From: a virus
Length of the DNA: 24,263 bases
IMG/VR virus record: IMGVR_UViG_3300028284_000030
Location: 1 to 24,263 of that record
Direction: 5' to 3' (one strand)
In this document: one piece after another, positions 1 to 24,112 of the stretch
Position numbering within the stretch: the first letter of the stretch is position 1
Layout: the number at the start of each line of letters is the position of its first letter
The notes under the pieces: model-generated
Told to the model about the DNA's origin: nothing
Seen by the model: only the letters and a program-made list of their open reading frames with translations
The model's database searches: none
Program-made: the position numbers and the translations under genes

Positions 1-948
1 TGGACAGACTCGAATACAAGGAGCATATTCAGCGGGAAAGAACTTGGGAACGTACTTGTCTATATACCAAAAATATATAAAGTGGATGTAGTCTTAACAG
101 AAGATATAGTTAAAATAAAATCAGTAAAAAAACTCCTTTCTATATTTAATCCGATATATAATTTACAAGTAGAAGTAAACGAACAAGAACCAGAAATAGA
201 GTATGATTTTATGTTACCTGGATTTGAAAACGGACTTAAATCACATTTTAATCGGAAAGATGATCCTTTAGAAATTTTAAAAGTATGTCAAATGCAAGAT
301 AAGACTTACCTACATTCTGATTTACATTCAAGTAGGTTTTATTTGCAAAAAACATTTACCCATACTAATAGGTTTTTTGATATACTGTTTAGAAATAAAT
401 TGAATGTATATACCACAAATATCGATGCATCAAAACAGCACCAAAGGTCTAAAAATATAGACGATATTAAATTGTTAATTAACTACGACAAAAAAGACCA
501 GGATAGTTTGTCCCACTATATTAGTATGTTCGGACACCTACACCCAGCTGATAATATGTTTAACGGAGCAGAAGGAGGAGTACAGGGTTTAGTCTCTTAC
601 TCTAGAGTTGCCAATAGTATACCAGGAGAATTAACAAAAGACGAAATAAATACTTTAACTGAATTTGATATAAAAAAGGAAGCTAAGTATACTTACCCTA
701 GTCTATCCTATAAGGAAGTTGATATAGACTGTAATTTGGAAGATATTGTAAGAAAGAATGAATATAAAGGAATATGTATACTTCATAAAATAGAAAACTC
801 AAGCTTTATTCACGACTATAACTACTTACTCTTTCATTTACCTTTTGAATATACATTAACTAGAAGTAAGGATAAGTCAATTTGGATTATAAACTGTCAA
901 CACCCATATTGGAAAACAGGGGATAGTTACTTAGAGAATGTGCTATGA
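1..948 (+). CDS. Unrecognised protein, 5' end cut by the window edge
   Basis: The reading frame is open from base 1 and encodes residues such as WTDSNTRSIFSGKELG ahead of the first possible start, the GTG at 82. The gene therefore probably begins outside the window and the GTG is internal. At least 315 codons are visible. I recognise no family. The protein is polar and rich in Tyr, Asn, Asp and Lys, has no obvious membrane segment, and contains a His/Gly-rich stretch (MFGHLHPADNMFNGAEGGVQG) in its middle. Its stop overlaps the next start (ATGA at 945-948), so it is translated with the sugar-metabolism genes downstream. A role in the same glycan pathway is inferred from position only. Confidence 0.7.
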   Translation, partial: WTDSNTRSIFSGKELGNVLVYIPKIYKVDVVLTEDIVKIKSVKKLLSIFNPIYNLQVEVNEQEPEIEYDFMLPGFENGLKSHFNRKDDPLEILKVCQMQDKTYLHSDLHSSRFYLQKTFTHTNRFFDILFRNKLNVYTTNIDASKQHQRSKNIDDIKLLINYDKKDQDSLSHYISMFGHLHPADNMFNGAEGGVQGLVSYSRVANSIPGELTKDEINTLTEFDIKKEAKYTYPSLSYKEVDIDCNLEDIVRKNEYKGICILHKIENSSFIHDYNYLLFHLPFEYTLTRSKDKSIWIINCQHPYWKTGDSYLENVL

Positions 949-1763
949 CGATAGGATTTTTAACACCATATAAACATTTACCTGACTTTGCAGAATATGT
1001 GGAGAAAGAATATAGGTGTGTAAACCTTCTAACAGACCCTCAACATGTGGACTTTATATTTTCAGCTCCCAACTACGACAACTGTGTTATAGGAGATACC
1101 GAAGTACTTAAATTTACCCCTACTGCTATTCTATCTCCCTCTACAGGGACTAATCACATTACTACAAACCTTGTACCGGTAGTAGATATAAAGAATGATA
1201 CAGTATTAGAGTATATTCCGTCAACAGCAGAGCATAACCTATACTTAATCCTGAGTTTAGTCCGAACCGCTTCTCCGATACAGCAATTAGGAGATTTAAC
1301 TTTAGGAATACTGGGGTACGGGAGACTAGGTAAAATGTTGCATAGTAAATGCGCTAACTTATTTAAAAGTGTAGAATACAAAGACATTAACGAACAGAGT
1401 CCTAACTTCTATACCGATACAGATATACTCAGTTTAAATATAGACTTGACAGATAATAATATAGACTTTATAGACTCTAAGTTTCTTTCAAAGTTTAACA
1501 AAGACTTATTTATAGTTAATACTAGTAGAGGTGAAATAATTAACGAAGAAGAGTTGATTATAGAAATTAAAAATAATAAAGTTTTAGGGTACGCAACAGA
1601 TGTTATAAAAGAAGAGAATAGTAATACAAACACGGCATTAAAAGAATACAGTAAAACATCTAATATAATAATAACTCCGCATATAGGAGGAACCGCAATA
1701 GGAGCACAGGAATTAGCATATAAAAGAACAGTAATTAAATCACAAGAAAAATATGGCAAATAA
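945..1763 (+). CDS. D-isomer-specific 2-hydroxyacid dehydrogenase-like protein
   Basis: A predicted NAD(P)-dependent oxidoreductase of the 2-hydroxyacid dehydrogenase (phosphoglycerate dehydrogenase-like) family, 272 residues. The Rossmann dinucleotide motif GILGYGRLG is at 121-129. The substrate/cofactor motif NTSRG at 192-196 supplies the catalytic Arg (R195). DVIKEE at 219-224 offers the likely catalytic Glu (E224), and TPHIGG at 244-249 supplies the catalytic His (H246). The full triad is present, so activity is plausible. It is shorter than typical family members (about 310-330 residues), mainly in the N-terminal substrate-binding part. The start overlaps the preceding stop by four bases and the end overlaps the next gene by eleven. 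In this cluster it may oxidise or reduce a sugar-acid precursor; the substrate cannot be told from sequence. Confidence 0.85.
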   Translation: MTIGFLTPYKHLPDFAEYVEKEYRCVNLLTDPQHVDFIFSAPNYDNCVIGDTEVLKFTPTAILSPSTGTNHITTNLVPVVDIKNDTVLEYIPSTAEHNLYLILSLVRTASPIQQLGDLTLGILGYGRLGKMLHSKCANLFKSVEYKDINEQSPNFYTDTDILSLNIDLTDNNIDFIDSKFLSKFNKDLFIVNTSRGEIINEEELIIEIKNNKVLGYATDVIKEENSNTNTALKEYSKTSNIIITPHIGGTAIGAQELAYKRTVIKSQEKYGK

Positions 1764-2250
1764 TTGGAGAGAATTTGATAAGTACAGCAAAGCATTTGAA
1801 TGGATTATAGAAAACAGACCAATGTTAATAGTGGAATACGGCGGTGGAAGCAGTACACATCATATTAATCAACTACTAGATGAACTTGACTACGGTGGAA
1901 GGGTAATTGCATATGAAAATAACCCTGAATGGTTAGAACACGCTAATAATAAAGGAGAAAATCAACACGGTAGTATACGGTTAGCTGAGATTGAAGTGAT
2001 TGACCACGATAAAGGTTATTGCCGTTACATTCACCCTATTGAAGATGTAGAAGAAGTTGACATGGTGATAATAGACGGACCGGATTACAGGTTGCTTTTA
2101 GACCCAAGAGGACACCCATTTAATGCTACTGACAACCTAGAATTGATTGTAAATCACTTAGGTAGAGAAGTCCCCTACTTTGTAGACAGTAGACAAGGAG
2201 TAGTAAGGTATTATAAAGATTTAGGATACACAACACAAATTCCACAGTAA
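1753..2250 (+). CDS. Small class I SAM-dependent methyltransferase-like protein
   Basis: A 165-residue protein with the Rossmann-like layout of class I methyltransferases. A glycine-rich SAM-binding loop, EYGGGSST, is at 28-35. An acidic residue ends strand 2 (E55 in VIAYENNPEW), and a strand 4 motif VDMVIIDGPDYR lies around 102-113. It resembles the minimal methyltransferases found in polysaccharide loci. The start at 1753 overlaps the dehydrogenase stop, and the stop shares one base with the next start (TAATG). It probably methylates a small molecule or glycan, but a catalytically inactive SAM-fold protein cannot be excluded. Confidence 0.7.
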   Translation: MANNWREFDKYSKAFEWIIENRPMLIVEYGGGSSTHHINQLLDELDYGGRVIAYENNPEWLEHANNKGENQHGSIRLAEIEVIDHDKGYCRYIHPIEDVEEVDMVIIDGPDYRLLLDPRGHPFNATDNLELIVNHLGREVPYFVDSRQGVVRYYKDLGYTTQIPQ

Positions 2251-3068
2251 TGAAAAGCTCTTATGATTGCGTTGTAGCTGTCGGTTGCAGTTACACAGCA
2301 GGATCGAACATAATAACCGATCCAATGACTGATGCTTACAAACTTAGAGCATCTTATATACTAGCCAATGAATTAAACATTCCAGAAATTAATTTAGCAA
2401 AACCAGGAGGAGGAAATCAGTTCATTACTAGGACTGTATACGAATGGATTAAAAATAATACTAAATATAGTAACCCTTTATTTTTAATAGGTACAAGCGG
2501 TATCACACGTAAAGAGTTTCAAAGTGTAGAAACAGACAAGTATTACGATTTACATATATTCGACTTTCAATGGAATAACCCAAAGGAATTTCAAAACTCA
2601 TTAAAAACAAGAGCATCTAAAGTTTCAACACATTTAGATACTGAATCATTTGAGAAATGGCTGAGAGTAGAAACTGAATTTATGTATAATGATTCTTATG
2701 AGCAAGAAAGAGCTAAAAGACTTTACGAGCTACTTACAGTGTACATTGAAAGCAAAGGCTATAACTACGTAATTTTTAATTCACTATATGATGTAATTGG
2801 TTCTTTGAAAGACGAATTAAATTTCGTATCTTTCAATATGGAAGAAGGTCAAGAGTACGCTATGAATGATGTTGCATCGACTAAAAACGAATCACAACTA
2901 CATGATTGTTGGTACCACTACCTACGTCAACAACACGGTAAGAAGTATGACTTTAACGATACATCCACTAGAAGTAATGTAGCACCTTATGGTGAGTACT
3001 TTTGCGGTGGACATCCATCACCTAAAGCAAATTACGAATTAGTACAACGAATTAAAAAGTACATATAA
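2250..3068 (+). CDS. SGNH/GDSL-like hydrolase, copy 1
   Basis: A 272-residue protein whose N-terminus VVAVGCSYTAGSN (8-20) matches block I of SGNH hydrolases, with S14 as the likely nucleophile. A glycine-rich block II (AKPGGGN) follows near residue 50, and the C-terminal GGHPSPKAN gives the catalytic His (H255). The usual Asp three residues before that His is absent (CGGHP), and block III reads GTSGITR without the usual Asn, so the site is either divergent or degenerate. Such enzymes act as O-acetyl esterases, and in glycan clusters they typically trim or transfer acyl groups. There is no signal peptide. Start and stop are fused to the neighbours. A second copy lies at 4760. Confidence 0.7.
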   Translation: MKSSYDCVVAVGCSYTAGSNIITDPMTDAYKLRASYILANELNIPEINLAKPGGGNQFITRTVYEWIKNNTKYSNPLFLIGTSGITRKEFQSVETDKYYDLHIFDFQWNNPKEFQNSLKTRASKVSTHLDTESFEKWLRVETEFMYNDSYEQERAKRLYELLTVYIESKGYNYVIFNSLYDVIGSLKDELNFVSFNMEEGQEYAMNDVASTKNESQLHDCWYHYLRQQHGKKYDFNDTSTRSNVAPYGEYFCGGHPSPKANYELVQRIKKYI

Positions 3069-3069
3069 A

Positions 3070-3903
3070 ATGAGAATTATAGCAGAGTTATGCCAAAATC
3101 ATAATGGAGATAAAAAACTATTAGAGAAAATGGTGAAAGAAGCTTCAGAAAGCTGTGAGATAGTTAAAATACAAACAATTTTAGCAGATTCATTAGCTAA
3201 GAGAAAAGAATATGAAGAGTTCAGACCTTACGAAGCAGAGTATAAAAGATTAAAAGGATTAGAACTATCAGAAGATGACGAAAAATTCTTTATTGATAAA
3301 TGTAGAGAATATAATGTTGAACCTATGACTACACTTTTCTCTAAACAACAAGTTCAGAGATTCAACCGGTTAGGGTATAAAAAATTAAAACTATCAGGGT
3401 ATTCAATTCCTACGTTCGATTACGGAAAAGGATTAAAGGAAGTAAAATTTGACGAATTATTTTTCTCTACATCTTCATTAACTCCCTCAGAAATTAGAAG
3501 AACTGTTATTAATTTAAATGAAATGGGAATAAAATTTACGATGCTTCAATGTACTTGTAAATACCCAACTAGGATGGAAGATGCAGGACTTCACAATATA
3601 AAATTTATAAAGGAAAACTTTAAACTAGAGAGGATAGGCTACAGTGACCACTCTAACCCTTGGAAAGATGGATTAAGTATTCCTAAGATAGCTATATTCA
3701 ACGGTATTGACGTACTTGAAAGACATTTTACTATACTAGGAGAAGAAGATACAAGAGACGGTAAGGTATCTATAAATGCTGCTATGGCAAAAGAACTGAA
3801 AGAATTTAGTTTAAAAATACCGTACCAGCAATACCTAGAACTCAACGTATTTGACTCAGAGCAAGAACATAATCACGATTTTTATAGAGGGAGATTCATA
3901 TGA
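3070..3903 (+). CDS. NeuB-like sialic/nonulosonic acid synthase, catalytic barrel only
   Basis: The family condenses phosphoenolpyruvate with an amino sugar to make a nine-carbon sugar acid. Visible landmarks are AELCQNHNG near residue 5 (family AEI-NH-G), VKIQT near 35, MLQCTCKYPT at 158-167, IGYSDHS with H194, and LERHFTI (family EKHFT). At 277 residues it lacks the C-terminal antifreeze-like (SAF) domain that usually completes the active site in proteins of about 340-350 residues. The position that is His in NeuB (LHCT), a metal ligand, is Gln here (Q160); other branches of the family also vary at this site. Product identity, and whether it is a true synthase, are therefore open. It sits between an SGNH hydrolase and a glycosyltransferase. 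Confidence 0.82.
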   Translation: MRIIAELCQNHNGDKKLLEKMVKEASESCEIVKIQTILADSLAKRKEYEEFRPYEAEYKRLKGLELSEDDEKFFIDKCREYNVEPMTTLFSKQQVQRFNRLGYKKLKLSGYSIPTFDYGKGLKEVKFDELFFSTSSLTPSEIRRTVINLNEMGIKFTMLQCTCKYPTRMEDAGLHNIKFIKENFKLERIGYSDHSNPWKDGLSIPKIAIFNGIDVLERHFTILGEEDTRDGKVSINAAMAKELKEFSLKIPYQQYLELNVFDSEQEHNHDFYRGRFI

Positions 3904-4766
3904 AAGTAACTTTTGTAATAGTTTATTCATCTTTAGATACACCAACTAAACTGTATGATAACGATTTAGAGGTAACCAGTGTAATAAATCAACACACAGT
4001 AAACCTTCTAAACCAATTTGAAGATATAAAAATAGATAAAGAGATTATATTAGTAGACAATACCGGAGACTTTGGAGACTTTAGGGTACCTAATATGAAA
4101 GTGATTACAGGTCCTCAATACTACCTGGAAAGAGGACTAGAAGTACCATACGAGTGGTACACTAAGGAAAATATAAAAGACTTGTATATATCTACTCATA
4201 ATCACAACCATGCAGCATTTTGCTCCATGGGCTTTCAAGCTGGGGTTGAAGAGGCTACAGGAGACTATATAATCATGCAACATAATGATACTAAGTACTT
4301 ATTCGATCATTATAGCGGAGACAAAGTTATACAAGACAGTATAACGCTATTAGAAGATAACGACTATGCTTATATAACAGTAGATAAAAAACCTAGAAAA
4401 GAAACAGAACCACTTACTGCTGAAAATGTACCGCATATTGAATATTTTGCGGATTGTTATTGGTTTCTGTGTAGAAGAGATTTTTACTCTGAAAATAATA
4501 TACATGTAGATTGGACTAGAGGAGATACCAACCATTTAGCTACAATTATATGTGAACAGACAAATCAAAAATATTTACACCTCCCAGGGTATTATGAAGT
4601 TAAACAATTTAGAGACCCAGAATGGAGAGAAAACTTACAAAAAAAGTACCCAAGTTTGTTGGCTCACGGGCAAAATATTCATACATTGTATAATATACCT
4701 TTCTTAGCACACGTTAAAGGAGGAACAGGATTAGGAAGAAAGATAATTAAAGGTACAATATGGTAA
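3900..4766 (+). CDS. Glycosyltransferase, GT-A fold (GT2-like)
   Basis: A 288-residue protein with the family 2 layout. An N-terminal Rossmann-like strand (TFVIVYSS) is followed by EIILVDNTGDFG around 48-59, with D53 as the likely nucleotide-binding acid. The stretch AGVEEATGDYIIMQHND around 114-130 corresponds to the A-G-YI-DxD region of GT2 enzymes, with HND at 128-130 in the metal-binding position. A later tryptophan/acid-rich acceptor region follows. It probably transfers an activated sugar, perhaps the one made by the neighbouring NeuB-like and nucleotidyltransferase proteins, though that link is inference. It is likely cytoplasmic, with no transmembrane segment evident. The start overlaps the NeuB-like stop by four bases. 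Confidence 0.72.
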   Translation: MKVTFVIVYSSLDTPTKLYDNDLEVTSVINQHTVNLLNQFEDIKIDKEIILVDNTGDFGDFRVPNMKVITGPQYYLERGLEVPYEWYTKENIKDLYISTHNHNHAAFCSMGFQAGVEEATGDYIIMQHNDTKYLFDHYSGDKVIQDSITLLEDNDYAYITVDKKPRKETEPLTAENVPHIEYFADCYWFLCRRDFYSENNIHVDWTRGDTNHLATIICEQTNQKYLHLPGYYEVKQFRDPEWRENLQKKYPSLLAHGQNIHTLYNIPFLAHVKGGTGLGRKIIKGTIW

Positions 4767-5539
4767 TACTATGCAATGGAGATAGCTGGACACAAGGAGA
4801 TTCTCCTGCTCAACAGGTTAACTGGAATGTCAAAGAAAGCGAAATCTTCGATGATTACCAGATACTACCAAGTTTTTCTGATCCTTATGTTCGACACAAC
4901 CTACGTGCTACACACAAATTCTATAATTCCCCAGTATGGCCGAAAGTGCTTGGTAACAGTTTAGAAATAAAGACATACAATACCGGGAGGTTGGGAAGAA
5001 GTAACTACGATATAGCAATATCTACAGTAAAAGCAGTAAACACTTTACTGAATGAAGGAATTAAAGAAATATTCGTAGTAATAGGATGGTCATCCCTTTT
5101 AAGAAAAAATATATTCTGCTATAATGGAAAGCTGGACAGACCAACACCAATGCAAATCAGACCATTGACAGAAGGTTTTGAGCATGTATATCAAGATATA
5201 CTAACATTAGAAGATGCATTTGCAAATAATATATACCTAACTCAACAGTACCTTACCTCAAAAGGAATTGATTTTTTATTTTTTAATGCTTTTGATACAT
5301 TTACTAATTACAAAAACACTCAAGTCGGTAACACACTAGATAAAACTAAGTGGTTGAATGAAGATATTACGTCTTCACATTTTTTAGACTTTTTAAATCA
5401 ACATAGTATAGAAAACGATATAGAGTTAGTGAATAATAGTCAAGATACAGATTACCTAATCTCCAACCATCCAACAGATAAATCACATAAACTTTGGGGT
5501 TCTTATTTATCTCAAGAAATAGTTAATAAGGTTAAATAA
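4760..5539 (+). CDS. SGNH/GDSL-like hydrolase, copy 2
   Basis: A 259-residue protein with block I CNGDSWTQGD (S9 nucleophile), a block II-like NTGRLGRSN, a block III-like VIGWSS, and a C-terminal SNHPTDKSH with H237. As in the first copy, the Asp normally three residues before the His is missing. The two proteins share the same order of blocks but are otherwise divergent, suggesting related rather than identical roles such as acyl-group removal or transfer on a glycan. The start overlaps the glycosyltransferase stop, and the stop shares one base with the next ATG. The family call is good; catalytic competence is uncertain. Confidence 0.7.
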   Translation: MVILCNGDSWTQGDSPAQQVNWNVKESEIFDDYQILPSFSDPYVRHNLRATHKFYNSPVWPKVLGNSLEIKTYNTGRLGRSNYDIAISTVKAVNTLLNEGIKEIFVVIGWSSLLRKNIFCYNGKLDRPTPMQIRPLTEGFEHVYQDILTLEDAFANNIYLTQQYLTSKGIDFLFFNAFDTFTNYKNTQVGNTLDKTKWLNEDITSSHFLDFLNQHSIENDIELVNNSQDTDYLISNHPTDKSHKLWGSYLSQEIVNKVK

Positions 5540-6906
5540 TGAATAAAGTAAAATTAGTAATTTTTGATTTAGACGGTGTATTAGTAGAAGCTAAAAATAT
5601 ACACTTCGATGCCCTCAATGTCGCGTTAGGTGAAGAATACGCTATTAGCTGGTCAGAGCACTTATCAACTTACGATGGTTTAAAGACTAATCAAAAGCTA
5701 CAAATGCTTTCAGATAATAAAGGACTACCTACAGAATTACATAACCATATTTGGGAAGCTAAACAAAAACTTACTCTATATAAACTTAAATCACTTATCC
5801 CTAATCAAACCTTACAGTCTCTAATGAATGCATTAGTAGAAGATGGGTATAAGATTGCAGTATGTTCTAATTCTATCAGAAAGACAGTGTTAACCGTTCT
5901 TTCAAAATTAGGGCTAATGGAGTTTATGGACTATATAATATCAAATGAAGATGTACAAAACTCTAAACCGCACCCAGAAATGTACTGGAGAGCTATCTCC
6001 AAAATGGGATGCTTACCTGACGAAACTCTAATAGTAGAAGACTCACCCTACGGCCTTCTAGCAGCATCTAGAGCTAAAGCTCATGTACTGAGAGTAAAGA
6101 ATCCAACAGAAGTAACTTATACAAATATATTTAAAAAACTAACAGAGATAGAAATGGGAAAAACAAACGATAATCCTAAATGGGAAGATAAGCATTTAAA
6201 TGTACTAATACCAATGGCCGGAGCCGGAAGTAGATTTCAACAAGCAGGTTATACTTTTCCAAAGCCTTTGATAGACGTTAACGGTAAACCGATGATTCAA
6301 GTTGTTACTGATAGTTTAAATATTAAAGCTAACTTTATCTATGTAGTACAAAAAGAACATAGAAGTAAGTACAACCTAGACACCCTACTAAATTTAATCA
6401 CACCAGGATGTAAAATAGTAGAGGTAGAAGGAGTAACAGAAGGAGCAGCATGTACTGCATTACTAGCTAAAGAGTTTATTGACTCAGATAAACCTTTATT
6501 TTTTGCTAACTCTGATCAATTCGTAGAATGGGATTCAAATGAATTTCTTTACAAAATGAATGAGACAAATGCAGACGGTGGGATAGTATCTTTTAGGTCT
6601 ACTCACCCAAAATGGAGCTTTGCTAAAATTAACGATAAAGGTTTAGTAACAGAGGTAGCAGAAAAAAATCCAATATCGGATATTGCTACTGTTGGATACT
6701 ACTACTGGAAGCATGGTTCTGATTTTGTTAAATATGCTGAACAGATGATAAATAAAGATGTTAGGGTAAACGGAGAATTTTACGTATGCCCTGTTTTTAA
6801 TGAAGCGATTGAAGATGGAAAAGAGATACGCACATTTGACATACCAAAGATGTGGGGATTAGGAACACCAGAAGACTTAAAACATTATTTAGAAAACAAT
6901 CGTTAA
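5539..6906 (+). CDS. Bifunctional HAD phosphatase - sugar nucleotidyltransferase fusion
   Basis: Two enzymes in one 455-residue chain. Residues 1 to about 205 are a HAD phosphatase of the beta-phosphoglucomutase/phosphoglycolate phosphatase type: FDLDGVL with nucleophile D10 and D12, the motif II region VCSNS, KPHPEMY, and acidic VEDSPYGLLAA. From about 218 comes a nucleotidyltransferase of the glucose-1-phosphate family: LIPMAGAGSRF at 223-233, FPKPLIDVNGKPM with K242, and NSDQ with D326. The likely sequence is to dephosphorylate a sugar phosphate and then activate a sugar phosphate with an NTP, but the substrates may differ. The nucleotidyltransferase is not of the NeuA CMP-sialate type. 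TAATG junctions occur on both sides, so the whole cluster is probably co-transcribed. Confidence 0.85.
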   Translation: MNKVKLVIFDLDGVLVEAKNIHFDALNVALGEEYAISWSEHLSTYDGLKTNQKLQMLSDNKGLPTELHNHIWEAKQKLTLYKLKSLIPNQTLQSLMNALVEDGYKIAVCSNSIRKTVLTVLSKLGLMEFMDYIISNEDVQNSKPHPEMYWRAISKMGCLPDETLIVEDSPYGLLAASRAKAHVLRVKNPTEVTYTNIFKKLTEIEMGKTNDNPKWEDKHLNVLIPMAGAGSRFQQAGYTFPKPLIDVNGKPMIQVVTDSLNIKANFIYVVQKEHRSKYNLDTLLNLITPGCKIVEVEGVTEGAACTALLAKEFIDSDKPLFFANSDQFVEWDSNEFLYKMNETNADGGIVSFRSTHPKWSFAKINDKGLVTEVAEKNPISDIATVGYYYWKHGSDFVKYAEQMINKDVRVNGEFYVCPVFNEAIEDGKEIRTFDIPKMWGLGTPEDLKHYLENNR

Positions 6907-7505
6907 TGAAAGTAGCTCTAGATATAGGTGCTCATGACGGAAGAGATTCTCTCAAACTTTTAAAAGAAGGGTATAGAGTATATGCTTTCGAACCTTTAAA
7001 GAACAGGTACGATAAATACTTCAGACCTATTGAAGATGCTTATGAAAATTTTACACTTTTACAGCTTGGCATAGATAAAAACCCAGGCCTTAAAAAGTTT
7101 TACGATAACACTGGTTTAGGAACTATAAGTAGTTTGTATGAATTAGATAAGTCTATTGTAGAAGAAAAATGGCCAGGACAAGATTTAGACAAAAGTATTA
7201 CTGTTAGAGAAATACTGTGTATAACATTATTTGATTTTTGTACGTACGCTAATATAGACAGAATAGACTACTTACACTGTGACACTCAGGGAAACGATTT
7301 AAACGTATTAGAGTCTTTAGGAAGCAAAATAGATATGGTTCAAAAAGGAGTAGTTGAAACATCTGGAACAAAAAGCCTGTATTATTCAAATAACTCTAAG
7401 GAAGCAGTTATTAAGTTCTTAATTAATTGTAATTTTAAAATAGATAAAGAAGAATTATTAGGAGACGGCTCTATTGAATATAATATTCATTTTAGCAAGA
7501 TATAA
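6906..7505 (+). CDS. FkbM family methyltransferase
   Basis: A 199-residue SAM-dependent methyltransferase. I chose the ATG at 6906, which overlaps the preceding stop as TAATG like its neighbours. An in-frame start at 6852 would only add 18 basic residues overlapping the nucleotidyltransferase gene. The SAM-binding motif is VALDIGAHDG (3-12), with the acidic FEPL (E29) ending strand 2. The FkbM hallmark LHCDTQGNDLNVLESLG lies in the middle, followed by VVETSG. Members commonly O-methylate sugars in capsules, lipopolysaccharide and antibiotics. Here it may cap or tailor the glycan made by the surrounding genes, which is inference from context. Confidence 0.82.
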   Translation: MKVALDIGAHDGRDSLKLLKEGYRVYAFEPLKNRYDKYFRPIEDAYENFTLLQLGIDKNPGLKKFYDNTGLGTISSLYELDKSIVEEKWPGQDLDKSITVREILCITLFDFCTYANIDRIDYLHCDTQGNDLNVLESLGSKIDMVQKGVVETSGTKSLYYSNNSKEAVIKFLINCNFKIDKEELLGDGSIEYNIHFSKI

Positions 7506-7510
7506 AAACT

Positions 7511-7861
7511 ATGAGAGAAAGCAAAAGATATTCAGAAGGACAAAAACGAGCTTTAGTAGACATAGATGAAACAATATCTACTTACCCCGGTAAGCGTATA
7601 TACGAACTTGCAGTTCCTCTAAAAGCAAATATTGGTAAAATAAATAAAATGCACTCTGAAGGATGGCATATTACTTACTGGACTGCTAGAGGAGCATCAT
7701 CTAAGATAGATACTTATGCTTTAACAGTCAAACAGTTAAATGAATGGGGCTGTAAATTTGACGACTTAATTGTAGGGTATCGGGAAGAACCTTACCACCC
7801 TACTAAACCTCATTTTGATATGGTAATTGATGATAAAGCAAAAAGAATAGAAGAAATATAA
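7511..7861 (+). CDS. Small HAD-superfamily phosphatase
   Basis: A 116-residue protein with the complete HAD signature. Motif I is ALVDIDETI with D17 and D19, motif II is YWTARGAS with T58, and motif III/IV is VIDDKA with D107 and D108. There is no room for a cap domain, so it resembles the minimal capless HAD phosphatases found in capsule loci. These act on sugar phosphates or other phosphorylated biosynthetic intermediates. It may supply the dephosphorylation step for the NeuB-like product, in parallel with the HAD half of the fusion protein upstream. It starts five bases after the FkbM gene and ends in a TAATG junction with the GDPD-like gene. Confidence 0.75.
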   Translation: MRESKRYSEGQKRALVDIDETISTYPGKRIYELAVPLKANIGKINKMHSEGWHITYWTARGASSKIDTYALTVKQLNEWGCKFDDLIVGYREEPYHPTKPHFDMVIDDKAKRIEEI

Positions 7862-8301
7862 TGATACTAATTTCACATAGAGGTAATATAGACGGCCAAA
7901 ATAAAGATAGAGAAAATACACTTAGCTACATTAACGAAGCCCTGAAAAACGGTTTTCAAGTAGAAATAGATGTATGGTATGTAAAAGGAAGTTTCTACTT
8001 AGGACATGATACACCAGATACCAAGATACGTTTCGCGGAATTTGGCAGTGATATTACTAAGTTATGGATTCATTGTAAGAATACATCTGCACTATCTGAA
8101 TTAAATAAGTTAGATATGAGAGGAGTTAAACTTAATTACTTTAGCCACGATCAGGATAATGCAGTATTGACATCAAAAGGTTATATATGGTCTATACATT
8201 CTATAGAAAGAAGTATACTAGTAATGCCAGAGTCTACTGGGAATTTACCTACATCTAATACGATAGGTATTTGCAGCGATAATATTAAAATGTATGCTTA
8301 A
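7861..8301 (+). CDS. GDPD-like phosphodiesterase, short
   Basis: The N-terminus carries the glycerophosphodiester phosphodiesterase signature: ISHRGN (H6, R7), RENTLSYINEAL (E18, N19), VEIDVW (E35, D37) and YLGHD (H49). All active-site residues expected in the first half are present. At 146 residues it is well short of the roughly 240-residue TIM barrel, so the C-terminal strands are reduced or lost. Related short proteins occur in polysaccharide clusters. It could cleave a glycerophosphate-linked substituent, but function is uncertain. It overlaps the next gene by eight bases. Confidence 0.68.
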   Translation: MILISHRGNIDGQNKDRENTLSYINEALKNGFQVEIDVWYVKGSFYLGHDTPDTKIRFAEFGSDITKLWIHCKNTSALSELNKLDMRGVKLNYFSHDQDNAVLTSKGYIWSIHSIERSILVMPESTGNLPTSNTIGICSDNIKMYA

Positions 8302-8962
8302 AACAGCTATAATAATTTCAGGGTATTTAGTAGAACTCTCGGACAATATACTACCCTTTCTCAATAAAAGCACTGATGTATATGTGCATACTTGGAACAC
8401 CCCTGAAAATCGTAAATGGATAACAAAGCTCAACAGGTATAAAAAATTCTGTAGAAACCTACACGTTATTATAGACGAACCAATAGAACATTATAGTAAA
8501 CTGTATTCGTACTTTACTTCCACATATAGAGCAGCCCATTCTATCGATAGTAGAGTTGAGTACTCTAAAGTCATTAAATTTAAACCTAATATAGAGGGAG
8601 AGATTGAATATAAAGGAAATATAGAAAGGTATTATAATAAAGCGTACATTCACACTAGACCTATGCTACAGAGCACTACTATTAACCAATGTATATTTGG
8701 GAGTAGCTATTACCGTACATTAGATGAACGTATGTTTACATTGACACCATCAGCTTTAACTAAAATGTTTAATTATAGTCCTAGAGATTTTGAAGTTAAA
8801 ATGCAAAACGTTTACTCTTTAATTAAAGCCGATTTTGGGAATAACCCAGAAGGTAGTATTTTCTGGAAACGATGGTTAGACATTCATAATATACACCTTA
8901 TTCAAGATATAGATTTAAAATTAAATAATAATATACAGCATGGACAAACAAGATACTATTAG
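8294..8962 (+). CDS. Unknown protein, possibly glycosyltransferase-like
   Basis: A 222-residue protein. The start KTAIIISGYLVEL followed by DVYVHTWNTPENRKW (about 28-42) resembles a family of capsule-cluster proteins that begin with an ISG strand and a D-hHTW motif and are suspected glycosyltransferases. A later NPEGSIFWKRWLDIHNIHL segment fits the C-terminal part of such proteins. The middle is rich in Tyr and Lys without clear motifs. It is the last gene of the glycan run. It overlaps the previous stop by eight bases, and its own stop lies inside the next small gene (23-base overlap). The glycosyltransferase idea is tentative. Confidence 0.6.
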   Translation: MLKTAIIISGYLVELSDNILPFLNKSTDVYVHTWNTPENRKWITKLNRYKKFCRNLHVIIDEPIEHYSKLYSYFTSTYRAAHSIDSRVEYSKVIKFKPNIEGEIEYKGNIERYYNKAYIHTRPMLQSTTINQCIFGSSYYRTLDERMFTLTPSALTKMFNYSPRDFEVKMQNVYSLIKADFGNNPEGSIFWKRWLDIHNIHLIQDIDLKLNNNIQHGQTRYY

Positions 8963-16945: not shown

Positions 16946-19819
16946 ATGGCAATAGGTTGGAATAAAAAATCTTACTTAGGAAGTCCCCTTGATCAACCTG
17001 TTCTTTTACAGCTGGAGAAACGTAAAAAAAGATTCACTAAAAAAGTAAGAGATAACGAAGATATTCAATATTTAAATGCTAATAGTATATGGATTAGATT
17101 AATGTCTAGTGTAGATACGTTATCAGGAGTTAATCAAGACTCAAATGAATACTCAAGTGAACTTGCTAAATCTAATATTCTACTTAACGGAACACTCACC
17201 AGTAAGGGTAAATTAAGGTATGGTGCTCCTACGAATATGGTTTTCGACGAGCAACGAGGTGATGAAGCTTATGATGTAACATTACCTGACGGAACAGTCC
17301 CTATGCCGGGAATTACAGCTTTTCAAGTAGAAAGTAAGAACACACACGGTACAGTCAGACTAGCAAAAATAGAATTCTCAGTACATTCAGGAGATCAGCT
17401 ATCTGTTTTAGAAGCTCTTTTTATGAGACCCGGATACGATGTTCTTTTAGAGTGGGGACATACAGTGTATATTAATAGCAAAGACGAAGTAGTAACTTCT
17501 CCTAAAAAGATATCAGATACGTACTTTATGACATCTGGTGGCTCACATAAAGCTATACAAAAAGGATTACAAGATGTTAGGATACTAAATGATTATAATT
17601 CTGATGGAATGTTTGGAGCTGTATCTAATTTTTCATGGAAAGTAAACGGAGGTAGCTTTGACTGTTCGATAGATATAATGTCTAAAGGAGATCTACTAGA
17701 ATCTGTTCAGATGAATATGTCCAATGGAAATGTTGGAATCTATGGTAAAGCACCTGGTGAGGCTGCAACAACAAATGCAACTCAAGAAGAAAAATTACTT
17801 CAGTCTTCTGCTATGCACCAATGGTTAGGAATTCTTCAATACACGAAAGCTACAGAATTTAGAAAAGCACCAAAAGCAATTGTCTCAAGACTGTTATCTA
17901 AGATGTTTGGCTTTACAACTTGGATGATGGACTTCGAGTATAATACTAATACTACAGGAATCCCCGGTGAATACGGATATGATGAAAGTTTAGATGTGCG
18001 TCATAGGGTAATACATCATATATGTAGTACATCAAGGGTAAATTCTAATGGAGAATTATTTAGATTTATGCCCTTAGCAGAAGTACTTACACTTTTAAAT
18101 GTAGTATTTATGCCTAAAGAGTTAATAGGAAGGAGAAATAAAGTTAATATAGTAAAATTCTGGACCGGCGATAAAGCAAATTTGGAAGATCCAAAAACTC
18201 CCTTCTTAACATTTCCAGAACACTTTGCTTTGGATGTAGGTGTAGCTCTTCTCCCTAAAACCTCAAAAAAAGATTACGTACCTACCCTAGCAACTCATTT
18301 TAATAAAAAGAATGGGCAGATAGATGATATATTAAACATTTATGTAAATGTAAACTATGTAATAGAAACTCTAGATAAACAGATATTAGAAACATCAGAA
18401 AATACCTCTACTATACTGACATTTGTCAGGGCTCTAATGTCTGGAATTCAACATACATTGGGAGATGTAAATGAGTTCGATATAAGTTTTGAAGAAGGAA
18501 CAGGAACTTACTTTGTAGTAGATAGAAAAATAGTACCCGGTGGGGACCAATTAAAGAACCTCGATTCTAAAATTGATATAGTAGGATTAGGAAGTACAGC
18601 TGAAAATATTCAGATTACCTCTAAGAACACATCCAGTATTGCAACAATGGTCGCTATAGCAGCACAAGCTACACAGAGTGATGCAGGAGAGCGTATGCTA
18701 GCAATGCAGAAATGGAACTTAGGACTCAAAAACAGACACGTTAAACCTCTAGTAATAGGAGCAACCGAAGCTAAAAAGTTAGAAGAAAAACCAGAGGTAA
18801 CAAAAGCCGTACAGGCTAGACTAAAAAAGTTTTTAACAGATCAGGACTCCTTAGCAGCATTAAGAACAGCAGCACAGGGTGATGATTCAAGTGCCCCTGC
18901 TGGCGACAGTCCAATAGTACTTGATTATGTAGCAAGCGAAATTAAATACCTTATACCTGCTCATAACCATGCAATGCAAAAATTTGCAGGTATTGAAACA
19001 AGAACAAAAAAATTTAATCCACCTGGGTTAGTTCCTATTGAATTAAGTTTTGCCTTAAAGGGTATTTCTAGTATTAAAATTGGTCAAGCTTTTATACTAG
19101 CTAATGAACAAATACTCCCTTTTCGCTATAGAGGAAATGTAGGGTTTATGATAACAGGGGTATCCCATTCAGCTGAAGGTAACAGATGGATGACCCAAAT
19201 TAAAACACAAATGATTGTAGTTTCTTCATTTACAGAAGAGATAGTTAAACAAGATACCGAAGAAGCTGAGAGTAAAACAGAAGAAGTAGAAGAAGCACCA
19301 CCTTACGTTCCTCCTACTAATCCAAGTACTCGTCAAGCTCCAAGCTCTCTATCTATCAGTGACGATGGATTAGAAAACATCAAAGAAGATGAAGGCTTCA
19401 GAGCAAACGCATATAGAGATCCAGGTTCAGGAGATCAGCCAATTACAATAGGATACGGTACTACACGAATTAACGGTAAAGCAGTGCAACTAGGAGATAC
19501 AATCACAGAACCTAAAGCAACTTCATTAATAAGACGTCAAGTACAGAATATATACGGAGCTGCAGTTAAAAGAAAAGTAAAGGTAGATCTAACTCAAAAC
19601 GAATACGATGCTTTAGTTTCTTTCACATACAATGTAGGTGTAGGTAATTTCGGAGCTAGTACACTACTACGCAAACTTAATGAAAAAGATTACCTCGAAG
19701 CAGCTGACCAGTTCCTAAGGTGGAATAAAGCTGCTGGACAAGTAATGAGAGGGTTAACAAAAAGAAGAAAAAAAGAAAGAGAGTTATTTTTAAAAGATAG
19801 CCCAGGAAATATAGCTTAA
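16946..19819 (+). CDS. Baseplate hub protein fused to a C-terminal GH24 lysozyme
   Basis: A 957-residue two-part protein. Residues 1 to about 765 form a large hub-like structural region (for example SVLEALFMRPGYDVLLEWGH and FSWKVNGGSFDCSIDIMSKG). An acidic/proline linker follows at about 770-806 (DTEEAESKTEEVEEAPPYVP). The last 150 residues are a T4-lysozyme-type GH24 domain. Catalytic Glu is E816 in KEDEGFRANAYRDP, and the counterparts of T4 lysozyme D20 and T26 are D825 and T834 (in ITIGYGTT). The family block FTYNVGVGNFGASTLLRKLN follows. The enzyme probably cuts peptidoglycan during infection, as T4 gp5 does, but it is fused to the end of the hub with no needle-like beta-helix after it. 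Confidence 0.85.
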   Translation: MAIGWNKKSYLGSPLDQPVLLQLEKRKKRFTKKVRDNEDIQYLNANSIWIRLMSSVDTLSGVNQDSNEYSSELAKSNILLNGTLTSKGKLRYGAPTNMVFDEQRGDEAYDVTLPDGTVPMPGITAFQVESKNTHGTVRLAKIEFSVHSGDQLSVLEALFMRPGYDVLLEWGHTVYINSKDEVVTSPKKISDTYFMTSGGSHKAIQKGLQDVRILNDYNSDGMFGAVSNFSWKVNGGSFDCSIDIMSKGDLLESVQMNMSNGNVGIYGKAPGEAATTNATQEEKLLQSSAMHQWLGILQYTKATEFRKAPKAIVSRLLSKMFGFTTWMMDFEYNTNTTGIPGEYGYDESLDVRHRVIHHICSTSRVNSNGELFRFMPLAEVLTLLNVVFMPKELIGRRNKVNIVKFWTGDKANLEDPKTPFLTFPEHFALDVGVALLPKTSKKDYVPTLATHFNKKNGQIDDILNIYVNVNYVIETLDKQILETSENTSTILTFVRALMSGIQHTLGDVNEFDISFEEGTGTYFVVDRKIVPGGDQLKNLDSKIDIVGLGSTAENIQITSKNTSSIATMVAIAAQATQSDAGERMLAMQKWNLGLKNRHVKPLVIGATEAKKLEEKPEVTKAVQARLKKFLTDQDSLAALRTAAQGDDSSAPAGDSPIVLDYVASEIKYLIPAHNHAMQKFAGIETRTKKFNPPGLVPIELSFALKGISSIKIGQAFILANEQILPFRYRGNVGFMITGVSHSAEGNRWMTQIKTQMIVVSSFTEEIVKQDTEEAESKTEEVEEAPPYVPPTNPSTRQAPSSLSISDDGLENIKEDEGFRANAYRDPGSGDQPITIGYGTTRINGKAVQLGDTITEPKATSLIRRQVQNIYGAAVKRKVKVDLTQNEYDALVSFTYNVGVGNFGASTLLRKLNEKDYLEAADQFLRWNKAAGQVMRGLTKRRKKERELFLKDSPGNIA

Positions 19820-20376: not shown

Positions 20377-21702
20377 GTGTTTTATATAGTAGAAGAAGAA
20401 ACTAAACTTGATCACCTAACTAATCTAGCTAAGCAGTCAGCATTTGTTGAAGTTATTACAACCAACTCACAGATGCATTCAAGCTTTACAGATGTAGTAG
20501 CTGTATACATTAGACCGAAAGTCGGTAGTTGTGGATATATTATACCTGTTGATCACGATGAAGGTATTAATGTAGCAAAAGACCGTATCTACACGCTACT
20601 TAATTCTGTTACCACACTATATACATTAGATAAGAAATCTCTTCTATACCACTTTAATATACAGGGTGCTATAGACGTATCACTTCTTTATTCAATGACT
20701 AAATACGAAAGATTAGAAGTGTCTTCTGATAATCCCACATTAAATTGGTACAACAACAAATATAAAGACTTTAAAGATGTTAATAAACTAGTTCCTATAT
20801 CTAAAATATACGAAAATAGTGAGAAAATATACAAATCAGTAGAGAAGCATTTAGGTATTGATATACCTGAAGGTTTTGAATTTTATAACACCACCGCTAC
20901 TAATGTATTCTTCTTATTAGAACACCCAGGATTAGGTATACATTACCAGCCTTTCGTAGATACGTTCACTCCTAAGTCTCCAAGGAATAGTATTAAAGAT
21001 GGAGTAACATATACATCATATAATTTATATAACTCTACCTCTAGACCTACAAATGCTTTTAATAGCGTAAACTATGCTGCAATACCAAAATCAGAAGAAC
21101 ATAGGAAGTGTTTTCATCCACAGAATGATGTATTCGTAGAGTTTGATTTCGACGGATACCACTTAAGGTTACTTTGTGAACAGATAGGATACCCGTTAAC
21201 TGATGAATCCGCACATAAGCAATTAGCCAAACATTACTTTGGTACCGAAGATATCTCAGAAGAGCAATACCTAGAAGCAAAACAGATTAATTTTCAAGCT
21301 ATATACGGTAAAATACCAGAAGAACATAGTGACTTGAAGATATTTAAGGAAATACAGAATTATATTGATTCTATGTGGAGCCTTTTTAAAGAAAACGGCG
21401 TTGTATTCAATCCTATTTCCGGTAAACCATTTACAAGTAACTTAAAAGAGATGCACCCAGCTAAGCTCATGAATTATATGATGCAATCGTTGGAAACCGC
21501 AAGAAATATTCTTATATTGAAAGATATACTTAGATACCTTAAGGATAAACGCACAAAAGCAGTTCTATACACCTATGATGCAATCCTTTTCGATTTTGAT
21601 AAAAAAGAAGGTAAAGAAGTACTAGAAGGAATAAAAAACATATTAGAACAAGACGGGAAATACCCAGTAAAGTTTAAATACAGTAAAGATTTAGTTTTAT
21701 GA
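20377..21702 (+). CDS. Family A (PolA-like) DNA polymerase, short, degenerate proofreading region
   Basis: A 441-residue protein with the three PolA motifs. Motif A is EFDFDGYHLRLL, with catalytic D257 and H262 where E. coli Pol I has E710. Motif B is AKQINFQAIYG, with K302, F306 and Y310 in exact K758/F762/Y766 spacing. Motif C is YTYDAILFDF, with catalytic D401, where the usual HDE reads YDA. The N-terminal 120 residues resemble a DnaQ-type exonuclease in layout (YIVEEETKLDHL, GYIIPVDHDEG) but lack the DxE and N-D metal ligands. GTG is the start: an in-frame TAA lies six bases upstream and the next Met is residue 33. The chain is short compared with Pol I (928). T4 relatives normally use a family B polymerase. 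Confidence 0.82.
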   Translation: MFYIVEEETKLDHLTNLAKQSAFVEVITTNSQMHSSFTDVVAVYIRPKVGSCGYIIPVDHDEGINVAKDRIYTLLNSVTTLYTLDKKSLLYHFNIQGAIDVSLLYSMTKYERLEVSSDNPTLNWYNNKYKDFKDVNKLVPISKIYENSEKIYKSVEKHLGIDIPEGFEFYNTTATNVFFLLEHPGLGIHYQPFVDTFTPKSPRNSIKDGVTYTSYNLYNSTSRPTNAFNSVNYAAIPKSEEHRKCFHPQNDVFVEFDFDGYHLRLLCEQIGYPLTDESAHKQLAKHYFGTEDISEEQYLEAKQINFQAIYGKIPEEHSDLKIFKEIQNYIDSMWSLFKENGVVFNPISGKPFTSNLKEMHPAKLMNYMMQSLETARNILILKDILRYLKDKRTKAVLYTYDAILFDFDKKEGKEVLEGIKNILEQDGKYPVKFKYSKDLVL

Positions 21703-21727: not shown

Positions 21728-22183
21728 ATGACAAATGTTATGACCACCAGGTTTGATTATGATATCGAACCCCTGTACTTTAATGAAGATATGAGTAATA
21801 AACTATTCTGTACATTTGCTACGGAAGATACACTAGATAGCGTACTTGAAACTATTCAAGATAAATACCGCATCATCTATAATAAAATTTTTGTACTATA
21901 TTCTAAAAGTCAAGATGAATATATATGTACCTATAATGTTGACTTCGGTAACGTCGGAAGTTTTATAGATAATACCATCTTGGTACACCGTAAAAAAGAG
22001 TCTAATACACTCTATACCATTAATGCTCTGAATACTTTAATTCAAGAACTAAATGGAGGTAAACAAGATAGTAGTTACAGAGTTAACTGGGCAGATTATA
22101 AGAACTGCGTACTGTTAACCAAAGGACCTGAATTAAAAAGAATAAATACCAAATTATTTCGTATTATTCAGTTGGAGAGTTAA
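21728..22183 (+). CDS. Unknown protein between polymerase and ssDNA-binding protein
   Basis: A 151-residue protein; starts at 21728 or the in-frame ATG at 21740 are both possible. The C-terminal half, NTLYTINALNTLIQELNGGK followed by VNWADYKNCVLLTKGPELKR and INTKLFRIIQL, reads like a compact conserved domain. The N-terminal half is Asp/Tyr-rich with mixed strands and helices. I cannot name a family. Its place between the polymerase and gp32 suggests a replication accessory or regulatory role (RNA- or DNA-binding), by context only. Confidence 0.65.
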   Translation: MTNVMTTRFDYDIEPLYFNEDMSNKLFCTFATEDTLDSVLETIQDKYRIIYNKIFVLYSKSQDEYICTYNVDFGNVGSFIDNTILVHRKKESNTLYTINALNTLIQELNGGKQDSSYRVNWADYKNCVLLTKGPELKRINTKLFRIIQLES

Positions 22184-22232: not shown

Positions 22233-23036
22233 ATGAATTTAGATGCAATCAAGGCTAAACTAGACGCCTTAAACTCTAATGGTCAAGACAGAGAAAAGAC
22301 TGACTATTCAAAAATCTTTTGGAAACCTGCTATTGGAAAGCAAACGCTACGTATTGTACCGTCCGCTTTTGATCCTGCATTCCCGTTTAAAGAGATGAAA
22401 TTTCACTATGGAGTGGGTAAATACCCTATGGTGGCTTTATCAAATTTCGGTAAGCAAGATCCTATTGAGGAATTTGTAAAAGAGCTTAGAAAAACAAACG
22501 ATAAAGACAATTGGTCGTTATCAGGTAAGTTAAATCCTAAAACACGTATATTTGCTCCTGTAATTGTAAGAGGCGAAGAGGAAAAAGGTGTTAGACTATG
22601 GGGATTTGGCGTAACTATCTATAAAGCTTTATTAGCTTTAGCAGAAGATGAAGATATCGGTGACTTTACTGATGTAATCAACGGATGGGATATGGTAGTA
22701 GATATGCAACAAGGTAACCCTTACCCGGATACATCTGTACGTATTAAACCTAAACAAACTCCTCTATCAGATGATAATGAGCTAGTCGACTTATGGTTAA
22801 AGACGCAACCTAACCCTGAAGAAGTACATAATCAATATGATTACAACTTCATTAAGAAACAATTGCAGAATTATTTAAATCCAGGCTCCGGAGATGAAAC
22901 TCCAGCAGCTAGTACAGACGCAACAACACCTTTACCAGAGAGTTTAGGCCAACAAAAAACAGACTTTACTTTAGAAACAGCAACAGCAGAGAACAAAGAT
23001 AAAGTAAGTAAATTTGATGACCTATTTAACGAATAA
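22233..23036 (+). CDS. 32: Single-stranded DNA-binding protein (T4 gp32-like)
   Basis: A 267-residue gp32 relative. The basic N-terminus (MNLDAIKAKLDAL) corresponds to the cooperativity domain. The core has FWKPAIGKQTLRIVPSAFDP, FPFKEMKFHYGVGK, DPIEEFVKELRK and the OB-fold strands RIFAPVIVRGEEEKGVRLWG and GWDMVVDMQQGNPYPDTSVR. The C-terminus is a Pro/Thr linker plus acidic tail ending KVSKFDDLFNE, the usual partner-binding tail. It coats ssDNA and recruits replication and recombination proteins. No cysteine occurs anywhere, so the His/Cys zinc site of T4 gp32 is absent. It lies two bases before UvsX, its functional partner. The leader is AT-rich without Shine-Dalgarno. Confidence 0.92.
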   Translation: MNLDAIKAKLDALNSNGQDREKTDYSKIFWKPAIGKQTLRIVPSAFDPAFPFKEMKFHYGVGKYPMVALSNFGKQDPIEEFVKELRKTNDKDNWSLSGKLNPKTRIFAPVIVRGEEEKGVRLWGFGVTIYKALLALAEDEDIGDFTDVINGWDMVVDMQQGNPYPDTSVRIKPKQTPLSDDNELVDLWLKTQPNPEEVHNQYDYNFIKKQLQNYLNPGSGDETPAASTDATTPLPESLGQQKTDFTLETATAENKDKVSKFDDLFNE

Positions 23037-23038
23037 AC

Positions 23039-24112
23039 ATGGCAAAGAAAAAAGAAGCAGTACAGAAAGCCGCGACTGCGGCAGTCAAGAAAGGATTTAA
23101 TCTTGGCAATTTTAAAAAGAAGAAAGGTTTTGCAAATGCTTCCGTAAAGTTTAAAGAGCAGGGGTGGATACCCCTCTCTAAAGCTTTTCAAGACATTACA
23201 TCATTACCTGGTATTCCTACTGGTCACATTACCTTACTAAGAGGGCATAGTGATACAGGGAAGACAACTGCTTTACTAGAAGCAGCGGTTAATGCACAAA
23301 GACAAGGAGTTCTACCAGTGTTTATTATTTCAGAGATGAAATGGTCATGGGAACATGCTAAAGAAATGGGATTAGAATTCACAGAAGTTCTAGATGAGCA
23401 TGGGAAAGTTACCGACTACGAAGGGTTCTTTTTATATGCAGACAGAGGTACTTTAAACACTATTGAAGAAGTAGCAGTACATATGGCTGACTTAATAGAT
23501 GAGCAAACTAAAGGAAACTTACCTCATGACTTATGCTTCTTCTGGGATTCAATTGGATCTATTCCATGTGATTTATCAGTTCGTTCTAATAAGAACAATA
23601 ATGAATGGAATGCAGGAGCTATGTCTACTCAATTCGGTAATAACTTGAATCAAAAGATTCTTTTATCAAGAAAAGAGAACTCACCTTATACTAATACGCT
23701 TGTTGCTATTAATAAGGTTTGGACTATGAAACCAGAACACCCTATGGGTCAACCTAAGTTGCAAAACAAAGGAGGAATGTCAATGTGGTACGATGCTACC
23801 TTAGTAGTTACTTTTGGAAATATAACAAACCCAGGTACCTCTAAAATTAAAGCTGTTAAAAACGGTCTTCAAGTGGAATTTGCTAAAAGAACAAATATTC
23901 AGATAGAAAAGAACCATATTGGAGGAGTACAGTCAAGAGGTAGAGTAGTTATGACATCTCATGGATTTATCGAGGACGATAAAAAAGCTATTGATAAGTA
24001 TCGAGATGCTCATAAAGAACACTGGCTCAAGTTAGTAGGTTCTATAGACTTTGATCTAATTGAAGAAGGAGATTTAGAAGAAGAAACTATCACTCCAAAC
24101 ATATTAGACTAA
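23039..24112 (+). CDS. uvsX: RecA-like recombinase (T4 UvsX-like)
   Basis: A 357-residue strand-exchange ATPase. A basic N-terminal tail (MAKKKEAVQKAATAAVKKGF) precedes the core. Walker A is GHSDTGKT at 69-76. The catalytic Glu is probably E99 in IISEMKWSWEHAKEMG. Walker B is DLCFFWDS ending at D170. The nucleotide/DNA-loop region SVRSNKNNNEWNAGAMSTQF follows, then NKGGMSMWYDATLVV. It forms filaments on gp32-coated ssDNA to drive recombination-dependent replication. It ends acidic, EEGDLEEETITPNILD. It starts two bases after the gp32 stop and ends by overlapping the exonuclease ATG (TAATG), so gp32, UvsX and the exonuclease form one unit. Confidence 0.93.
   Translation: MAKKKEAVQKAATAAVKKGFNLGNFKKKKGFANASVKFKEQGWIPLSKAFQDITSLPGIPTGHITLLRGHSDTGKTTALLEAAVNAQRQGVLPVFIISEMKWSWEHAKEMGLEFTEVLDEHGKVTDYEGFFLYADRGTLNTIEEVAVHMADLIDEQTKGNLPHDLCFFWDSIGSIPCDLSVRSNKNNNEWNAGAMSTQFGNNLNQKILLSRKENSPYTNTLVAINKVWTMKPEHPMGQPKLQNKGGMSMWYDATLVVTFGNITNPGTSKIKAVKNGLQVEFAKRTNIQIEKNHIGGVQSRGRVVMTSHGFIEDDKKAIDKYRDAHKEHWLKLVGSIDFDLIEEGDLEEETITPNILD

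Follow-up and report, generated by a model that had tools for sequence, protein, structure and literature searches.

A short family A DNA polymerase of the divPolA1 family in a T4-like phage is probably an accessory enzyme beside a separate full-length polymerase

The closest described relatives of the gene studied here are short, divergent family A DNA polymerases that were published in 2024 under the name divPolA1 and were named in 14 phages, including Flavobacterium phage immuto (Yutin et al., Virol J 21:200, PMC11348598). Its authors describe the family as having lost exonuclease function and part of the thumb and as lying among conserved replication genes, in phages that also have a regular PolA, PolB or PolC (PMC11348598). 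The authors conclude there that polymerase activity is likely retained and that divPolA1 is a replication-linked second PolA (PMC11348598). In the literature that we searched, the name is used only in this paper and its preprint, and we found no enzyme assay for any member of the family. Queuosine genes and T4 core genes are common to immuto and the Far-T4 phages (PMC4360716). As far as the available text of Yutin et al. goes, our analysis adds to the published family the uniform substitutions in the active-site pocket, a near-obligate neighbouring gene (p151), the size of the family and its occurrence in a 484-kb phage.

We analysed a stretch of 24,263 nucleotides (hereafter the window), which is a genome fragment and spans positions 1 to 24,263 of IMG/VR virus record IMGVR_UViG_3300028284_000030. 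The polymerase gene lies on the plus strand at 20377..21702, begins with GTG and encodes 441 aa; the choice of start codon agrees with the homologs, which have the same MFYIVEEE N-terminus. The protein matches PF00476 (DNA_pol_A) with 36.1 bits and an E value of 4.7e-9, above the curated cut-off of 34.3 bits. A phmmer search of the PDB with the single 441-aa sequence returned chance matches only, and a 53-sequence divPolA1 profile found Klenow and Bst. The window protein matched no PHROGs family, and 15 of the 53 relatives matched phrog_17. Its best annotated relative is the 'DNA polymerase family A' of immuto (NC_055915.1:1-1326; 61% identity over 441/441 aa, E 6e-176). From position 9321 to its end, the window is collinear with immuto from tail sheath to UvsX at 29-79% identity, and the two phages are different species. 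At 82-8962, ahead of the tail sheath, we observed a block of surface-sugar-type genes, among them a 2-hydroxyacid dehydrogenase (945-1763), a NeuB-like synthase (3070-3903) and a HAD plus nucleotidyltransferase fusion (5539-6906); no ORF of this block matched the immuto genome. As in T4 gp5, a C-terminal phage lysozyme domain (residues 813-944, E 1.3e-42) is part of a 957-aa tail protein at 16946-19819.

More distant relatives are found in LR756508, a 484-kb uncultured phage (30% identity), and in Microcystis phage Mel-JY01 (27%). At least 529 environmental relatives came from IMG/VR in an alignment-based scan, and a scan of GTDB genomes located divPolA1 in three contigs of metagenome-assembled genomes. 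Two contigs with divPolA1 and p151 (L272 and L273) are binned as Rickettsiaceae and Nitrosopelagicus genomes and are probably phage contigs that ended up in these bins. In a tree of 107 short proteins, built by a quick method and with long branches, the window sequence falls inside an immuto-like clade of 44 sequences with a support of 100%. All typed members of this clade carry a regular PolA, and members with PolB lie outside it. The window gene belongs to the published divPolA1 family, as it combines homology, a conserved palm, an inactivated exonuclease fold, a truncated thumb and downstream replication genes.

The fold of the protein was modelled with AlphaFold2. With 53 diverse sequences the model reached a pLDDT of 92.4 and a pTM of 0.90; an earlier model from 24 close sequences (pLDDT 75.6) had left the active-site loop unresolved, which the diverse set fixed. 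Residues 1-441 superimpose on the Bst Pol I large fragment with a Z score of 27.3 and an rmsd of 4.4 over 412 residues, and Foldseek retrieved Bst/Klenow-type large fragments with an E value of 6.7e-19. Since the structural match starts at residue 1, the N-terminal 160 residues (20377..20856, plus strand) correspond to the exonuclease-type domain that Bst Pol I also has, here a vestigial 3'-5' exonuclease-like domain without metal ligands. The exonuclease domain of Bst Pol I is itself inactive. The exo I strand reads V/I-x-V/P and has no D-x-E, the expected exo II Asp position is Lys87 (96% conserved in 107 sequences) and the exo III position may be Glu146, with all three positions assigned by us from secondary-structure order; hhalign comparisons of divPolA1 with regular PolAs were weak, too weak to map exonuclease motifs. 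The missing D-x-E and the Lys at the exo II position led us to judge the exonuclease inactive, which agrees with Yutin et al. (PMC11348598). An initial annotation of the window had proposed a dead proofreading region, which is supported by this structural alignment without intact ligands, mapped in the order of secondary-structure elements. Residues 161-212 (20857..21012, plus strand) form a short thumb-like region with modelled helices at 167-182 and 190-197. In the sequence alignment, the region before R223 is ~120 residues shorter than the Klenow region before R668, the model has ~50 residues between the exonuclease-like domain and the TSRP motif, and the 412 aligned residues are set against a 580-residue Bst fragment, all of which describes a truncated thumb.

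The active site was assessed in an alignment of 107 divPolA1 sequences, with Klenow/E. coli residue numbers counted by hand from the aligned motifs and all coordinates on the plus strand. R223 (Klenow R668), in the motif T-S-R-P-T-N, is present in 100% of sequences (21043..21045), as are D257 (D705), an extra D259 (S707) and H262 (E710) of motif A (21145..21162). Motif B, the O helix (21268..21309), contains Y298 (R754), K302 (K758), F306 (F762) and Y310-G311 (Y766-G767), conserved at 99-100%, and the primer/template contacts N366 (N845) and Q370 (Q849) are kept at 99% (21472..21486). N232 (N675) and H280 (H734) are also kept at 99-100%. In motif C (21574..21582), Y400 (H881) and D401 (D882) occur in 100% of sequences, and the position of E883, A402 in the window protein, is Ala in 45 and Ser in 62. 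The alignment confirmed the proposal of the initial annotation that D257 and D401 are the catalytic Asp residues, together with its reading of His262 for the motif A Glu and of Y400-D401-A402 for motif C; the change of R754 to Tyr298 is a further pocket replacement that had been overlooked.

The replacements S707D, E710H, R754Y, H881Y and E883A/S are uniform in the 107 sequences. Because they are fixed among sequences that are only ~30% identical, they suggest a specialised pocket and not decay. Mutations at E710, R754, H881 and E883 lower the activity of Klenow, so an enzyme in which all four are replaced could have low activity, depend on a partner or act on a different substrate. The palm/fingers part has an entropy of 1.55 bits, versus 2.2 bits for the N-terminal part, and holds 28 of the 32 columns conserved at 99% or more. 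Over 22 independent sequence pairs, the median dN/dS is 0.10 for the exonuclease-like part and 0.09 for the polymerase part; the gene is under purifying selection, at a dN/dS of ~0.09 in both halves. The option that this protein is a regulatory remnant is disfavoured by a pocket that is more conserved than the rest of the protein, by two Asp residues invariant in 107 sequences and by a dN/dS of ~0.09, and a degenerate remnant is unlikely.

Next to divPolA1 we observed a largely constant set of neighbours. Tail genes precede it in the window, and directly downstream lies p151 (21728..22183, plus strand), which encodes a widespread, conserved protein of 151 aa with the signature HRKKxxNTLYTINALN. 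Of 125 divPolA1 loci that extend far enough, 123 have this gene immediately 3' of divPolA1, and the reverse check placed divPolA1 upstream in all 79 p151-anchored loci with enough upstream sequence, taken from the best 80 matches and biased to the immuto-like clade. Searches of the PDB and PHROGs with p151 gave no usable match. The two genes are 2-3 kb apart in several lineages that are more distant and in part of the PolB type (L132, 11290-13641; similarly in L128, L103 and L160), and in LR756508 a 358-aa acidic ORF lies between them. In the window, p151 is followed on the plus strand by a gp32-like single-strand DNA binding protein (22233..23036, PF08804, E 8.7e-11) and a UvsX/RecA-like recombinase (23039..24112, PHROG 97, E 2.4e-16), which together with the PF00476 match confirms the early reading of a short PolA-type protein in a replication module. 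Downstream of divPolA1, gp32 was found in 89 of 92 loci and UvsX in 67 of 69, and 56 of the 60 loci that are long enough continue with a Pol I-type 5'-3' exonuclease (PF02739/PF01367). A search with PF09116 (T4 sliding clamp) matched nothing anywhere, controls included, and is hence uninformative. As read from its gene content, the operon appears to split what bacterial Pol I combines, with one gene for the polymerase and another for the 5' nuclease, and to lack proofreading.

To place divPolA1 beside the other polymerases of the same genomes, we compared 29 related records. The first set of 12 contains a full-length PolA beside the short one in eight records, immuto included, and Mel-JY01 and LR756508 have PolB instead; the second set of 17 contains PolB in ten and a full-length PolA in none. 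PolC matches came from LR756508 and from two records that have neither PolA nor PolB. In total, the 29 records comprise eight with PolA, 11 with PolB, two with PolC and one with PolB plus PolC, and no other polymerase was found in the remaining seven, which are shorter contigs of 35-59 kb. In 11 related records PolB is encoded by a gene of its own, and the immuto-like records lack it. In LR756508.1 (260623-266900 and 47415-48068), PolB matches fall in two ORFs of 1022 and 625 aa, and the PolC match and divPolA1 come in addition, possibly a split PolB plus a third polymerase family in one genome. The second PolA of immuto (777 aa, 37898-40231) adjoins groES/groEL and has intact motifs. In the clade of the window, the full-length PolAs measure 774-800 aa, and those checked have intact exo motifs I-III and the motif A Glu. 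The window, as a fragment, gave no PF00136 (family B) match, and we saw no PolA-like ORF in it besides divPolA1; as all typed members of the 44-member clade carry PolA, a regular PolA adjoining groES/groEL is predicted in the unsampled rest of this phage genome.

The coexistence of divPolA1 with a full-length PolA, PolB or PolC suggests that it is an accessory enzyme, and it bears directly on the opposite proposal, that divPolA1 is the replicative polymerase in place of gp43 and the other polymerase does repair. What speaks for such a swap is the location of the genes, as divPolA1 sits in the conserved replication operon and the regular polymerases lie in a variable neighbourhood, in immuto among chaperonin and nucleotide genes; on this ground, Yutin et al. 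describe what the regular enzymes do as less obvious (PMC11348598). However, divPolA1 lacks proofreading, its thumb is truncated and it coexists with an intact PolA, PolB or PolC, and the regular enzyme switches family between lineages while divPolA1 stays. It is also found at the tail-to-replication junction in PolB phages, which argues that it did not take the place of gp43. The polymerase swap raised in the initial annotation is thus unsupported, since every examined relative of sufficient length, bar a few fragments, has a full-length PolA, PolB or PolC. In the clade of the window, gp43 is replaced by the other, full-length PolA. Replacement of gp43 by divPolA1 is refuted for the family and unlikely in the window phage, and we consider a replicative role with repair left to the other enzyme very unlikely.

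Probably, then, divPolA1 is a second, accessory family A polymerase, with gap-filling as its most likely task and a separate full-length polymerase copying the genome. It retains the residues of the two-metal site together with most contacts to primer and dNTP, and has lost proofreading and part of the thumb. Such an enzyme would fill short gaps, or extend 3' ends, that arise from lagging-strand maturation or from recombination driven by UvsX and gp32. Its partners would be the Pol I-type 5' nuclease encoded in the operon and, probably, the neighbouring p151, and genome copying would be left to a distinct full-length PolA, PolB or PolC. The argument for gap-filling or Okazaki maturation comes from the linkage of separate polymerase and 5' nuclease genes in the operon, and against it stands that gene neighbourhood alone is not proof of a shared pathway. 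The repair or lagging-strand role suggested from the window sequence is supported to this extent, as an accessory enzyme beside a full-length polymerase and in an operon with gp32, UvsX and a 5' nuclease.

The same pocket residues allow two further readings. A catalytically silent PolA fold might bind primer-template or D-loop ends and regulate or load other proteins, as could be expected from four pocket residues that are replaced alike throughout, including the triphosphate-contacting Arg (R754Y). However, both metal-binding Asp residues and the equivalents of K758, F762, Y766 and H734 are invariant, which is not expected for a mere DNA binder, and we regard a silent fold as rather unlikely. 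Alternatively, with His at the steric-gate Glu and Tyr at the triphosphate-contacting Arg, the polymerase might have an altered substrate and incorporate ribonucleotides or extend RNA primers. The uniformity of H262, Y298 and D259 around the nucleotide pocket would fit this, but a His is likewise a bulky residue, F762 is retained and a DnaG primase is annotated in immuto, all of which makes a changed substrate highly improbable. A bolder version of the accessory role, in which divPolA1 and p151 form a two-subunit polymerase whose re-tuned pocket (His, Tyr and the added Asp) has an activity unlike that of characterised family A enzymes, in a very large group of T4-like phages, strikes us as quite unlikely.

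A phage is generally assumed to need a single DNA polymerase. An exonuclease-dead PolA that is kept in a large set of environmental phages while the main polymerase changes family must do something beyond the reach of the replicase. With its fixed set of active-site changes and its constant partner gene, it is a two-gene system open to direct testing, and a laboratory model is at hand in immuto with its cultured Flavobacterium host.

In comparison with known systems, the window gene is closest to divPolA1 of immuto, with the same inactive exonuclease domain, truncated thumb, conserved palm and downstream replication genes; nothing essential differs, and the regular polymerase of the window phage is predicted to lie outside the fragment. 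With the Bst/Taq Pol I large fragments it shares the family A fold and a vestigial exonuclease domain at 15% identity to Bst, but it is ~140 residues shorter, has E710, R754, H881 and E883 replaced and is encoded by a phage beside another polymerase. The regular PolA of immuto-like phages is likewise of family A and resides in the same genomes, but the two sequences are distant; unlike divPolA1, it has intact exo motifs (DxET, NASFD and YAxADT), the motif A Glu, RNxAK in motif B, HDQ in motif C and a Leu at 762. As described by Yutin et al., divPolA2 of barbaviruses resembles divPolA1 in being a second divergent PolA beside PolB without working proofreading, but an unrelated N-terminal domain replaces its thumb and its neighbourhood is variable (PMC11348598). 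Finally, T4 gp43 is also found in phages with gp32 and UvsX, but belongs to family B.
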